A stretch of DNA of 64,000 nucleotides from Candidatus Ruthia endofausta (GTDB taxonomy: Bacteria > Pseudomonadota > Gammaproteobacteria > PS1 > Pseudothioglobaceae): contig NZ_CP054490.1 in NCBI RefSeq assembly GCF_013342985.1, positions 868,001 through 932,000 on the forward strand. Reading direction: 5' to 3'. Shown piece after piece: positions 20,290 to 25,527 of the stretch. Below the pieces are notes generated by a model. The model worked only from the letters and a program-made list of their open reading frames with translations. It did not search any database and was not told where the DNA came from. The translations under genes and the position numbers were made by a program. Within the stretch, counting starts at the first letter, position 1, and the number at the start of each line of letters is the position of its first letter.

Positions 20290-20361
20290 TTATGATATGA
20301 AAAAAGGTATAGAAATAAAATGATAAAATTATACACTTTATTATTTTGCACAAGGACTCAG

Positions 20362-22920
20362 ATGAAATCAGCCTACCTTCAACATGTTAATAAACGTCAA
20401 CAAGGCAATCTACCACCTCTTGCCTTAAATGCACAACAAACCAAATCAGTGGTTGAGTGCTTAATCAAGGATGTTGATACGTCTTTTTATCTTGATTTAC
20501 TCACCCATCAAATACCACCTGGTGTTGATGAAGCGTCCTATCTAAAAGCCAGCTTTTTAAGCAGTATTGCTAAGGGCAATCAAGCCTGTCCTAGTATTTC
20601 TCAAGCGCACGCTACTTTTCTTTTAGGTACTATGATGGGTGGTTACAACATTGAGCCCCTAATTGAACTACTAGATATTAACGCCACAAGAGAAAGTGCA
20701 CAAACAGCGCTGGCAAATACCTTATTGATTTATGAGGCATATCAAGCTATTGTTGATAAATCTCAAACCAACCCTTATGCTAAGAATGTTGTAGATAGCT
20801 GGGCAGATGCACAATGGTTTAACAAAAAAGCACCCTTGCCTCAGAAAATTAAATTAAGCGTTTTTCGTGTTGAAGGCGAAATTAATACGGATGATTTATC
20901 GCCTGCAACACAAGCCTGGTCACGTCCAGACATTCCTTTACATGCACAATCCATGTTAATTAAAAAGATAAACAGGCCACTTGAGATGATTGAAAAACTC
21001 AAGCAAAAAGGCCTACCATTAGTCTTTGTGGGTGATATTGTTGGTACAGGCTCTTCACGTAAATCTGCCATTAACTCAGTGCTTTGGCACATAGGTGATG
21101 ATATTGATTACGTGCCTAATAAGCGCAGTGGTGGTGTTGTGCTGGGTGGCAAAATCGCACCGATATTTTTTAATACTGCACAAGATTCTGGCGCTCTGCC
21201 GATTGAGTGCGACGTTAGCAAAATGAAAATGGGTGATGAAATCACAATTTATCCATTCGAGGGAAAAATTATCAATAGCAAAGGTGAAACCATTTCAATT
21301 TTTGAACTCTTACCAACCACTTTATCTGATGAAGTACATGCAGGAGGACGAATTCCGCTTATTATTGGTAGGGGCTTAACTGATAGAACTCGCCAAGACC
21401 TCGGCTTACCCGTCTCAACTACTTTCTTACGCCCACAAGATGTTAGCCAAAGTAATACTGGCTACACATTGGCACAAAAAATTGTTGGCAAAGCTTGCGG
21501 TGTAGATGGCATTCGCCCAGGCACTTATTGCGAGCCACGCATGTCTAGCGTAGGTTCACAAGACACCACAGGTGCAATGACACGCGATGAATTAAAAGAA
21601 CTAGCCTGTCTTGGATTTTCAGCCGATTTAGTCATGCAAAGCTTTTGCCATACGGCTGCTTATCCTAAACCTGTTGATTTAGAACTACAACACTCACTGT
21701 CTGATTTTATGCACTCACGTGGGGGTGTGTCACTTAAGCCGGGTGATGGTATTATCCACTCATGGCTTAATCGCATGCTACTACCTGATACAGTAGGCAC
21801 AGGTGGTGATTCCCATACGCGCTTTCCTATTGGCATTAGTTTTCCAGCTGGATCTGGGCTGATTGCTTTTGGCGCTTCACTTGGTGTATTGCCATTAAAC
21901 ATGCCTGAATCTGTCTTAGTGCGCTTTACAGGCACAATGCAACCAGGTATCACCTTAAGAGATTTGGTCAATGCAATCCCATACATGGCTATACAAAAAG
22001 GCTTATTAACGGTTGAAAAATCTACTAAGAGAAACATCTTTTCAGGTCGTATTTTAGAAATTGAAGGACTGAGTGATTTAAAAGTAGAACAAGCATTTGA
22101 ACTGGCTGATGCTTCAGCCGAGCGCTCTGCCAATGGTTGCACAATTAAGCTAAATAAAGAACCTGTGATAGAATATCTAAACTCTAATATTGCCTTATTA
22201 TCTTCGATGATTAATAAGGGCTATGAGGATAAAAAAACCCTCGCCAGACGTATTCAAGCCATGGGAAAATGGCTAGATACGCCTGAATTACTAGTCGCAG
22301 ATACAGATTGTGAATATGCCGCAATGATTGACATTAACCTTGATGAAATCAAAGAGCCAATCTTGGCGTGTCCGAACGATCCAGATGATGTCAAACTACT
22401 CTCAGAAGTGGCCAACACCAAAATTGATGAAGTCTTTATTGGCTCTTGCATGACTAATATTGGTCACTTTAGGGTAGCTGCACAATTATTAAAGGACAGG
22501 TCAGAACTGACAACCGAATTGTGGATTGCGCCACCCACCCGAATGGACGAAGCGCAGCTTAGAGCAGAAGGTGTCTACGGTACATTTGACAAACTAACTA
22601 AACACACCGAAATCCCTGGTTGTTCTTTATGCATGGGCAACCAAGCACGAATCAAAGACAATGCCACAGTGATGTCCACTTCAACACGCAACTTCCCTAA
22701 TCGTTTAGGTGACAATGCTGATGTCTATTTATCTTCTGCCGAAGTAGCAGCAATTACTGCCAAACTAGGACACATTCCAACAAACATAGAATACCAAGAA
22801 GCAATAAAGGACATCAAACCAATGGAGGCACAAATTTATCAAAATTTAAATTTTGACCAACTAGATGAATATAAAGATGAGATAAATAGTGTGCCACTAG
22901 AAACCATCTTAAGTTCATAG
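20362..22920 (+). CDS. acnB: Aconitate hydratase B AcnB
   Basis: AcnB isomerises citrate to isocitrate and, in many bacteria, also hydrates 2-methyl-cis-aconitate. The start at 20362 follows a Shine-Dalgarno-like AAGGA and gives 852 residues, beginning '[20 protein letters not shown]', the typical AcnB N-terminus. The HEAT-like domain is followed by the swivel ('[19 protein letters not shown]'), then domains 1-3. The [4Fe-4S] ligands are in '[12 protein letters not shown]' and '[12 protein letters not shown]'. Bases 21439-22110 are present again, without change, at 24755-25426 (see repeat). Confidence 0.97.
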
Positions 22921-22923
22921 CCA

Positions 22924-22950
22924 ACAAAAAAGCCAAAAAGCGACTTTTTT
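22924..22950 (+). terminator. Weak hairpin after acnB
   Basis: AAAAAAG and CTTTTTT flank a short loop, ending in a T run. It is A/T-rich and weak, but lies between the convergent ends of acnB and rpmG and could serve both. Confidence 0.35.
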
Positions 22951-22972
22951 ATTAAAATTTTATATAAACGAA

Positions 22973-23128
22973 CTACTTAATCTTCGCTTCTTTGTACATC
23001 ACGTGTTTTCTAACAACTGGATCAAACTTTTTAACTTCTATCTTTTCTGGATGAAGACGTTTGTTTTTAGTGGTTGTATAAAAATGGCCTGTTTTAGCTG
23101 ATGATACTAACCTAATTTTCTCTCTCAT
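22973..23128 (-). CDS. rpmG: 50S ribosomal protein L33
   Basis: A 51-residue ribosomal protein, too short for many gene callers. The sequence starts '[20 protein letters not shown]' and continues '[20 protein letters not shown]' before '[11 protein letters not shown]', nearly the same as other gammaproteobacterial L33. It lacks the zinc-binding Cys pairs, i.e. it is the Cys-free type. The rpmB gene lies 9 bp upstream, the usual rpmB-rpmG pair. Confidence 0.97.
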
Positions 23129-23137
23129 AACTTGCTC

Positions 23138-23374
23138 CTAAACCTTTTCGCCACGTATACGAATTTCTGCTAACACAGTGTCAATACCTTTTTTATCAAT
23201 AATGCGCAATCCTTTTGCTGATAACTTTAACTTAACAAAACGATTCTCACTTTCCACCCAGAAACGGTGTGTGTGAAGATTTGGATAAAAACGACGACGC
23301 GTTCTATTGTTCGCATGAGATACATTGTTACCACTCATTGGTCGCTTGCCCGTAACCACACATACCTTCGCCAT
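23138..23374 (-). CDS. rpmB: 50S ribosomal protein L28
   Basis: A 78-residue ribosomal protein of the large subunit. It starts '[20 protein letters not shown]' and contains '[20 protein letters not shown]' (~21-40), the family signature. Full length compared with E. coli (78). It is cotranscribed with rpmG. Confidence 0.97.
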
Positions 23375-23498
23375 AATTCACCTATCAAAAAATCTATAAG
23401 GAAAGGAATTATACTTAAAATTATTCAGCTTTCAAAGCTAAATTATACAAAAACCCTATTTACTATTGCCTGAACAAACGGTATCATACTCCGGCATT

Positions 23499-23588
23499 GG
23501 AGGGATGGCAGAGCGGCTGAATGCACCGGTCTTGAAAACCGGCAAGGGTTAATATCCTTCTAGGGTTCAAATCCCTATCCCTCCACCA
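23499..23588 (+). tRNA. tRNA-Ser (anticodon TGA)
   Basis: A 90-nt class II tRNA with acceptor stem GGAGGGA/TCCCTCC, D-arm, anticodon stem CCGGT/ACCGG around CTTGAAA, a long variable arm and T arm GGGTTCAAATCCC; ACCA is encoded. The long variable arm and TGA anticodon identify serine. It borders a small island of broken genes, as often seen at integration-prone tRNA loci. Confidence 0.96.
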
Positions 23589-23785
23589 TTATTCTAGTCA
23601 CCTTACCCACAAACACACACTTCTCGCCACTTGCCCCATACATCGCGGTAATGTCGCTGTTCGTCATATCAAAAAAATAACCTTGATGACATTTATAGTG
23701 CGTTAATTCAATCTATTTTGACAACGCTCATCTACTACCTGTTTTGAAAAAGGTGCGGTTGGATAATTTTACAAAACCGCCTCAC
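23589..23785 (-). other. Unassigned gene remnant next to tRNA-Ser
   Basis: One minus-strand frame reads 'IELTHYKCHQGYFFDMTNSD' then 'ITAMYGASGEKCVFVGKV' and ends inside the tRNA 3' end, without a start codon. It looks like the C-terminal end of a protein whose front has been lost; I do not recognise the family. Further upstream the frame is closed. Confidence 0.3.
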
Positions 23786-24118
23786 TCAATACACAAACAT
23801 TTCTTGTAAACACTGGCATAAAGTTTGCTGAGTTGTTTGATTAATGACGCCTAATTTTCTAATCAGTTTTGACTTGTCAATCGCTCTTATTTAGTCTATT
23901 AAAATTAACCTTTCTTTTCCTGAAATTTTACCAAAACTCGGCAAGGGTACTTCAAACCCTTTGGTTGTCATTGGAGCGACAATAACCGTTGATAGGGCTG
24001 AAAGCTCATCTGGTGAAACCACAATACAAGGCCTAGTTCTATTAATTTCTCTACCCTTTGTTGGATTGAGACTAACCAACCACACATCAAGCCTATCAAC
24101 TTTTTTAGTATTCACCAT
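23786..24118 (-). pseudogene. MazF/PemK-type toxin with one nonsense codon
   Basis: MazF toxins are ribosome-independent mRNA interferases. The frame reads 'VDRLDVWLVSLNPTKGREIN' then 'RTRPCIVVSPDEL' (typical MazF strands with the catalytic Arg/Thr), 'VIVAPMTTKGFEVPLP' and 'GKERLILID', then TAA at 23891-23893. In the same frame the text goes on 'IRAIDKSKLIRKLG', the normal MazF C-terminus, to a stop at 23786. The family has Gln at the stop position, so a single CAA to TAA change explains it. The truncated 75-residue product lacks the last helix and is probably inactive. It overlaps the antitoxin gene by 7 bp. Confidence 0.82.
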
Positions 24119-24381
24119 TCTATGTCACTGTCATCAATCAAAGTGGCGTGCAACCATTCATTATCAACCTGTTCTTTACTGAATAATTTTATATGGTTTT
24201 CTATACTTTCTTGCCAGCCATCTCTAACTATTACACTTTTATGAGACTTTATCAATAATCCCTCATCCACTACTTTTAGTTCAAGTTCAAAACCACTTAA
24301 ATGCGCCTGTTCTATAATTGGTTTAGGAATTCTAATACCCTGTGAGTTGCCAATTTGAATTAAAAATATTGCAAAATCCAT
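24112..24381 (-). CDS. AbrB/MazE-type antitoxin
   Basis: Antitoxin partner of the MazF-type gene. The start at 24379-24381 gives about 89 residues; the swapped-hairpin DNA-binding domain reads 'IQIGNSQGIRIPKPIIEQA' (~8-26) and 'LKVVDEGLLIKSH' follows; the C-terminal half with Trp residues would bind the toxin. The frame is intact. Keeping antitoxin while losing toxin is the expected order of decay of such modules. Confidence 0.8.
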   Translation of the reverse strand: MDFAIFLIQIGNSQGIRIPKPIIEQAHLSGFELELKVVDEGLLIKSHKSVIVRDGWQESIENHIKLFSKEQVDNEWLHATLIDDSDIEW

Positions 24382-24389
24382 TAGTGATA

Positions 24390-24754
24390 GCAACGGCAAG
24401 AGCTGTACGCGGTGTAGAGCTTCTTACAGAGAAAATTCCTGGGTTTGACTCAATTTAAGACAGTGTTCATACCTTTATTCGCATCCCGCTTGGAGCACTA
24501 CTTACAGGCTATGCAATGGCAGAGTTTGGCCTTATAAGTGAAACCGTGGGGATGGTTATTAGCGGCGGAGTGACCTTTGCAACACATTTTATCAAGACAG
24601 GTACGCGTGCTTTAACATCAGTCCTGAATCAGTCAGTAATTGGACGGCTTTTCACTGAAGATGTTGCTGTGTTTACTGATATGTGGGCAGCAATTAATCA
24701 TCCTGCTGTTTGGATTGTTGTTGCCACTATTATCATTATTTTGATGGTTTGGTT
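24390..24754 (+). pseudogene. DUF4126 membrane protein remnant
   Basis: The plus strand reads 'IATARAVRGVELLTEKIPGF', a TAA, then 'HTFIRIPLGALLTGYAMAEF' and 'GVTFATHFIKTGTRALTSV', ending in a hydrophobic helix '[14 protein letters not shown]'. This resembles the C-terminal two thirds of DUF4126 membrane proteins (function unknown). The N-terminus is missing, one in-frame stop is present, and the 3' end is replaced by a copied segment of acnB from 24755. Confidence 0.6.
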
Positions 24755-25426
24755 GATGTTAGCCAAAGTAATACTGGCTACACATTGGCACAAAAAATTG
24801 TTGGCAAAGCTTGCGGTGTAGATGGCATTCGCCCAGGCACTTATTGCGAGCCACGCATGTCTAGCGTAGGTTCACAAGACACCACAGGTGCAATGACACG
24901 CGATGAATTAAAAGAACTAGCCTGTCTTGGATTTTCAGCCGATTTAGTCATGCAAAGCTTTTGCCATACGGCTGCTTATCCTAAACCTGTTGATTTAGAA
25001 CTACAACACTCACTGTCTGATTTTATGCACTCACGTGGGGGTGTGTCACTTAAGCCGGGTGATGGTATTATCCACTCATGGCTTAATCGCATGCTACTAC
25101 CTGATACAGTAGGCACAGGTGGTGATTCCCATACGCGCTTTCCTATTGGCATTAGTTTTCCAGCTGGATCTGGGCTGATTGCTTTTGGCGCTTCACTTGG
25201 TGTATTGCCATTAAACATGCCTGAATCTGTCTTAGTGCGCTTTACAGGCACAATGCAACCAGGTATCACCTTAAGAGATTTGGTCAATGCAATCCCATAC
25301 ATGGCTATACAAAAAGGCTTATTAACGGTTGAAAAATCTACTAAGAGAAACATCTTTTCAGGTCGTATTTTAGAAATTGAAGGACTGAGTGATTTAAAAG
25401 TAGAACAAGCATTTGAACTGGCTGAT
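24755..25426 (+). pseudogene. Exact 672-bp copy of the middle of acnB
   Basis: Every base that I compared between 24755-25426 and acnB 21439-22110 is identical, at a constant offset of 3316 bp. The copy codes for part of aconitase domains 1-2 ('[20 protein letters not shown]' onward) but has neither start nor cluster ligands, and it reads through from the DUF4126 frame in a chimeric 267-codon frame. It cannot be an active aconitase. Identity implies very recent duplication, ongoing gene conversion, or an assembly artefact. Confidence 0.93.
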
Positions 25427-25527
25427 TATACAAAAAGACAAAAACAACACCATCAACAAGGCAATATTTCTCAAGTTTATATGCCACAAATCATTAAAAT
25501 CCACTCAGGCTAGTGGCACAGTTGGCT
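25427..25527 (+). other. Short unassigned stretch after the acnB copy
   Basis: The chimeric frame goes on for 29 codons ('[20 protein letters not shown]' and a few more) to TAG at about 25511. This does not match acnB, so it marks the far junction of the copied segment, perhaps in the remains of another gene. No family recognised. Confidence 0.3.

Follow-up and report, generated by a model that had tools for sequence, protein, structure and literature searches.

The locus raises the question of how a piece of the aconitate hydratase B gene acnB came to lie, without a single changed base, among decayed pseudogenes downstream of the intact gene. A base comparison within the window (the whole 64-kb stretch of DNA analysed) found positions 24755-25426 identical to 21439-22110 at 672 of 672 bases, in the same orientation, at an offset of 3316 and with a 2644-bp spacer between them. 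The first-pass annotation, which had reported a base-for-base duplicate in direct orientation about 3.3 kb away, was thus correct on both points. The match is maximal, not one further base agreeing at either end, and an exact match of 672 bases cannot be chance. On both strands of the window the pair is the sole exact repeat of at least 30 bp. Throughout the assembly (one contig of 1,188,809 bp, 99.97% complete), the segment occurs at G000:C1:889439-890110, within the full query match, and at 892755-893426, and at no third place; G000 denotes the window's own genome, and G001, G002 and so on the comparison genomes. When the window and 20 scattered 20-kb stretches of G000 were sampled (464 kb, 39% of the assembly), the 672-bp pair was the only near-identical pair of at least 80 bp; the other pair listed was a 147-bp repeat of 77% identity.

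The source gene is intact. It spans 20320-22920 on the plus strand, encodes 866 aa and carries the Pfam domains Aconitase_B_N, Aconitase_2_N and Aconitase. The duplicated segment (21439-22110, plus strand) covers codons 374-597, starting at codon phase 0. Compared with G002, the gene differs at 55 of 1119 positions before the segment, 26 of 672 within it and 32 of 810 after it (4.9, 3.9 and 4.0%). The segment thus diverges from G002 like the rest of acnB, indicating that the source segment is native and ruling out its import. Against G004 and the Vesicomyosocius genomes, the acnB flanks are more diverged than the segment, in G004 chiefly after it.

The segment was matched in 39 of 58 genomes searched, G000 counted in. 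The nearest named relatives among these 39 loci are MAGs of Candidatus Ruthia, Ruthturnera and Vesicomyosocius; Ruthia and Vesicomyosocius are described as vesicomyid clam symbionts in the available text of PMC3202245. A look at related strains had been proposed earlier, and each of the 11 same-genus relatives gave one acnB match and no second copy, with seven first-look candidates scored per genome, a depth at which a weak extra copy could escape. Allowing up to two mismatches, only the window's own genome, out of 12 of the genus, carries the left-junction pattern. The ectopic copy (24755-25426, plus strand) is unmatched in all 11 same-genus relatives. We consider the exact repeat itself confirmed by these sequence comparisons; it most likely represents a real, very young partial gene duplication, misassembly being unlikely.

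The older arrangement of the target site can be read from the relatives, in which a DUF4126 gene or pseudogene is followed by a DUF1223 pseudogene and then by a gene that we take to be pyrE. The left flank of the copy is a DUF4126 pseudogene remnant (24357-24754, plus strand; Pfam DUF4126 at 24516-24818, E 2.7e-8) whose 3' end is cut by the copy, and which is homologous to L034 4814-5208 and L036 3890-4240, L036 being a G011 locus. On its right, the copy is flanked by what remains of a DUF1223 pseudogene (25427-25499, plus strand), with 25422-25499 matching L036 4654-4731 at 97%. The assignment of this remnant comes from the relatives' pieces, which match PF06764 with E-values of 5.6e-35 in G007 and 1.2e-28 in G011; the window piece by itself gave E 0.025 with this profile, short of the cut-off. 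DUF4126 sequence runs on past the left-junction point in G010 and G011, and DUF1223 sequence past the right-junction point in G002, G007 and G011. G002 has lost its own DUF4126 part and is informative for the right junction only. In G011, 382 bp lie between the two junction points, made up of the DUF4126 end and the DUF1223 start. A search for this native stretch across the window's genome returned two hits only, both of them the flanks, with no match left in the genome to suggest its transfer elsewhere. As the 382 bp are present in G011 and unmatched in G000, the copy replaced native sequence, amounting to about 382 bp when G011 is the reference. The event was not a plain insertion, since that much native sequence is gone by the G011 yardstick.

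The two junctions differ in microhomology, with 6 bp on the right and 0 bp on the left. At the right junction, GCTGAT (25421-25426, plus strand) is common to acnB and to the DUF1223 pseudogene of G002 and G007; in G011 only five bases, CTGAT, are found. When breakpoints were drawn at random in acnB and in the pseudogene of G007, at least 6 bp were common in 0.25% of 200,000 trials. The left junction (24752-24757, plus strand) has no clear microhomology with acnB as judged against G010 and G011, its ancestor being inferred from relatives of 80-84% identity. Two further joints lie in the same patch. One, TCATTAAAA (9 bp; 25491-25499, plus strand), lies in the DUF1223 remnant and is deletion-like by comparison with relatives; it took away most of the DUF1223 3' part before pyrE. 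The other, GAATTA (6 bp; 24357-24362, plus strand; G007 and G010 compared), separates a mazE-like region from the DUF4126 remnant. Both joints look like microhomology deletions, and the patch has undergone breakage and rejoining more than once.

The sister genome G002 holds two local copies of its own. One is a direct pair of 166 bp (99.4% identity, gap 1.7 kb, the copy lying downstream; G002:C1:1017593-1017758 and 1019444-1019608) in what reads by eye as a tatD-like gene. At the place of this copy the flanks are adjacent, with 1 to 11 bases between them, in G000, G007, G010 and G011; in G003 and G004 the alignment is not clean at this point. By eye, its junctions share at most 1-2 bases. The other is an inverted pair of 122 bp (99.2%, gap about 350 bp; G002:C1:816674-816794 and 817143-817264). 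The 122-bp stretch appears by eye to be a segment of rpiA with its inverted copy directly after the gene, and it matches only inside the source gene in all seven other genomes searched. By sequence, the two copies in G002 are analogous to the one in the window and would be products of the same sort of event.

Such copies were scarce in the samples, which comprised about one quarter to two fifths of each genome (scattered in G000, contiguous in the others) and yield counts, not rates. No dispersed pair of at least 80 bp at 90% was found in 400 kb each of G001, G003, G010 and G011, the G010 and G011 samples holding tandem repeats only, and no pair of at least 200 bp in the samples of five relatives (1.98 Mb). 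The exact-match survey covered pairs of at least 32 bp within 10 kb; overlapping or tandem arrays and palindromes were set aside, as were a direct pair of 33 bp in G002 that looks lipoyl-domain-like by eye and inverted pairs of 49 bp in G001 and 38 bp in G011. At G010:C1:1067372-1067585, 107 bp are duplicated exactly in tandem. Local dispersed copies of at least 100 bp numbered 3 in 844 kb of G000 and G002 against 0 in 1,600 kb of G001, G003, G010 and G011. Two of the three came from 380 kb of G002, and G000 outside the window had none in 400 kb; the G000 count is biased, the window having been picked for its repeat. recA is absent from G001 and G003 and present in G010 and G011. We do not claim a contrast between recA-bearing and recA-less genomes (3 vs 0, probability 0.04 by base share), which was framed after the data, because the window was chosen for its repeat, the recA-bearing G010 and G011 have tandem repeats only, and sampling was unequal.

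As to origin, we hold with moderate confidence that the copy stems from one very recent templated insertion at a deletion, made independently of RecA. A DNA end would have formed in the DUF1223 pseudogene, during replication or break repair in the decaying intergenic patch, and would have paired through the 6-bp GCTGAT with acnB 3.3 kb away. Copying of 672 bases of acnB would have followed, and the end would then have been sealed to the DUF4126 pseudogene, about 382 bp of the native DNA being lost. A polymerase template switch (long-distance template-switch or MMBIR model), the order of the switches and the neutrality of the product are the parts of this account that we infer. Against it stand the left junction, with no clear microhomology, and the 166-bp copy of G002, which is similarly poor in common bases by eye. 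Short-patch double illegitimate recombination in Acinetobacter likewise replaces native sequence with a templated patch from elsewhere in the genome, the patches there being tens of bases and the one here 672 bp. Over the 20 stretches and the window, the GC skew switches sign near 0.5 and 0.97 Mb, which would place the window on the arm replicated leftwards, so that the microhomology junction would be met first.

Profiles of repair genes were run on six genus genomes (G000, G001, G002, G003, G010 and G011). Ku was found in none of the six, as against 1 of 14 controls (B. subtilis), which makes Ku-dependent end joining with fragment capture unlikely. MutS_V was found in none of the six and in 11 of 14 controls. 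DprA matches are partial or broken in five of the six, and G001 has none. recA is intact in G000, with an open stretch of 365 residues and a RecA hit at 1.2e-144. In E. coli, according to the available part of PMC3161906, nearby sequence is inserted at microhomology junctions and end joining is not favoured there. The copy described here resembles the template switches of that Lac system in having nearby sequence at a new junction with short microhomology. It differs in being a single 672-bp local copy in a natural symbiont, whereas most switches in the starving E. coli cells span tens of kilobases, and in having microhomology on one side only. The same source (PMC3161906), as far as available, puts the dimension of a replication fork at about 1.5 kb, which is less than the 3.3 kb here and speaks against a switch within one fork. 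In the available text of PMC13345212 and PMC5310779 there is nothing decisive for this case, and mutS goes unmentioned in the available main text of PMC5310779.

The same end structure at this locus would also result, to judge from the sequence, from two steps, namely a 3.3-kb tandem duplication (21439-24754, joined 24754|21439) and a subsequent deletion in the second unit, from acnB position 22110 to the GCTGAT of DUF1223, that took out the redundant remainder and left a 672-bp remnant. The direct orientation, the downstream place and the native sequence directly left of the copy are all as this route predicts. Its deletion joint would hold the 6-bp microhomology, in keeping with the 6 and 9 bp at the two further joints of the patch, and the exact 107-bp duplication in G010 indicates that tandem duplications occur in the genus. 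It requires two events in a very short time, however, and the inverted copy in G002 is beyond its reach. For the 166-bp copy of G002, moreover, this route would need a deletion stopping almost exactly on the former duplication joint (within 1-2 bases, by G000, G007 and G011). An intact tandem duplication was seen in none of the 11 relatives, which are represented by one genome per species and include no sibling strain. We regard the two-step route as unlikely, with an appreciable residual weight, and keep the single templated insertion as the preferred reading.

G002 retains the native right-junction sequence, which implies that the copy postdates the split of G000 and G002. A copy made at the split would predict about 26 or more differences, the number seen between the acnB segments of the two genomes (26/672), one copy presumably being unconstrained; the two copies show 0 of 672. 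With a 95% Poisson upper bound of 3 differences, the age is at most about 12% of the split time, and the event would fall within the last 12% or so of it. An older duplicate held identical by RecA-dependent gene conversion could draw on the intact recA of G000. Against this, the absence of the copy at the right junction of G002 makes the event younger than the split anyway, the partial or mosaic differences that conversion would leave are not seen, and exchange in cis would presumably risk the loss of the spacer genes. Conversion is accordingly very improbable. The suggestion that the copy is either very young or kept identical by recombination thus stands in its first half and needs no recombinational upkeep; youth is the simpler reading. 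An assembly artefact through scaffolding, gap filling or chimeric reads would account for the exact identity, the 672 bp exceed common short-read lengths, and the local copies of G002 could carry the same fault if they came through the same pipeline. Assembler k-mer joining requires overlaps longer than 6 bp, though, and the pieces overlap by only 6 and 0 bp at the junctions, too little for such joining. Neither the window nor any of the 20 sampled stretches contains an N, and the native 382 bp are absent from the rest of the assembly. The order acnB, rpm genes, tRNA-Ser, pyrE agrees with G002, G003, G010 and G001, whereas G007 and G011 have the pyrE side at another genomic place, away from the acnB block. 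The flanks of the G002 copies are likewise adjacent in relatives. Taken together, these points make an artefact distinctly improbable. That a mobile element or phage carried the acnB piece is scarcely credible. The adjacent tRNA-Ser does resemble an integration site in G007, where the tRNA 3' end is repeated and an ORF that looks recombinase-like by eye is present. At the copy, however, neither a target-site duplication of 2-15 bp nor a terminal inverted repeat was found, the longest inverted common word within 40 bases of the ends being 5 bp, and no transposase-like ORF was seen beside it by eye. A viral scan gave nine loci, all within the acnB part (72-90% identity) and none matching the chimera.

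The copy does create an open frame. As the first-pass annotation had it, the chimeric frame is mechanically open at 24710-25513 (plus strand), with 267 aa from a TTG, an acnB part and a DUF1223 tail, and on its right side it continues in frame into the DUF1223 remnant. The description of the copy as fused to a DUF4126 remnant fits the left flank; the fusion is out of frame, the DUF4126 ORF lying in frame 0 and the chimeric ORF in frame 2, and the DUF1223 identity of the right flank had been missed. The motifs SCMTN and GCSLC, whose cysteines we take to be the cluster ligands of aconitase, start at acnB codons 709 and 767 and so fall beyond the copied stretch (codons 374-597). A functional aconitase B paralogue is rejected for lack of these motifs in the copy. 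A functional chimeric gene is also unlikely, given a TTG start off the DUF4126 frame, the missing cysteine motifs and zero differences on which a selection test could be run. The acnB fragment is probably neutral junk with no evident function.

The spacer (22111-24754, 2644 bp) holds the acnB 3' part, rpmG (read by eye), a gene at 23138-23374 that is presumably rpmB, tRNA-Ser(TGA) at 23499-23588, MazF/MazE-like remnants and the DUF4126 remnant. Exchange between the two copies would delete 3,316 bp, the spacer and one copy together; in effect acnB would be truncated by its last 31%, and rpmB, rpmG and the one complete tRNA-Ser(TGA) would be lost. With recA intact and no second full copy of tRNA-Ser(TGA) found in the genome, the loop-out of rpmB, rpmG and tRNA-Ser envisaged at first is possible in principle. 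Cells that loop out the spacer should die, which would make the repeat a risk to any cell that has recA.

As a gene, the copy probably has no consequence; it is of interest as a long repeat newly formed in a reduced genome in which RecA persists. According to a 2011 proposal, RecA consumed repeats longer than 200 bp in the early phase of genome reduction before being lost itself, and the available text calls it not clear whether recA-bearing members hold repeats of that length, their genomes being awaited (PMC3202245). The present case concerns the same symbiont group and the same question about repeats above 200 bp. It differs from that hypothesis (PMC3202245), as far as set out in the available text, in that the 672-bp repeat is new, not an old leftover, and sits in a recA-bearing genome. 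A recA-bearing genome with a new 672-bp direct repeat, joined by at most 6 bp of homology, offers a testable locus for the RecA hypothesis, and copies of this kind could supply the repeats by which shrinking symbiont genomes become unstable. Repeat growth is seen in unstable insect endosymbionts such as Portiera of the whitefly S. simplex, with 23 direct and 17 inverted repeats in the available account; like the present case, it concerns a reduced symbiont whose intergenic and pseudogene DNA carries repeats in both orientations (PMC7821994). In Portiera dnaQ is a pseudogene (PMC7821994), and the clam-symbiont stretches sampled here, by contrast, have very few repeats. As a speculation to which we give rather little credence, recA-bearing clam symbionts with no detectable MutS or Ku may keep making direct and inverted repeats of 100-700 bp by local template switching, and RecA exchange between them may delete essential genes and so favour recA loss. 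Reduction would then be a cycle of repeat making and removal, not the mere using up of old repeats.

Some minor observations concern the neighbourhood of tRNA-Ser. Beside it in the window lie a shortened MazF-like ORF of 75 aa and a MazE-like ORF (23891-24399, minus strand; Pfam PemK_toxin and MazE_antitoxin). Among the 12 genus genomes, the mazEF-like DNA was matched only in G000 and G007, in the latter beyond an element. That element occupies L115 from 399 to about 5110 (G007:C1:1082500-1092500), where a tyrosine-recombinase-like ORF and some 4.7 kb of element-like ORFs, all named by eye, come after tRNA-Ser; it ends in a repeated tRNA 3' end before mazEF, and the place has the look of a small element's integration site. 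In G011 the acnB-tRNA-Ser block and the DUF4126-pyrE block (L035, L036) are about 200 kb apart, and a 28-bp piece of the tRNA-Ser 3' end is repeated at L036 3714-3741, suggesting a rearrangement or a large insertion at the tRNA.
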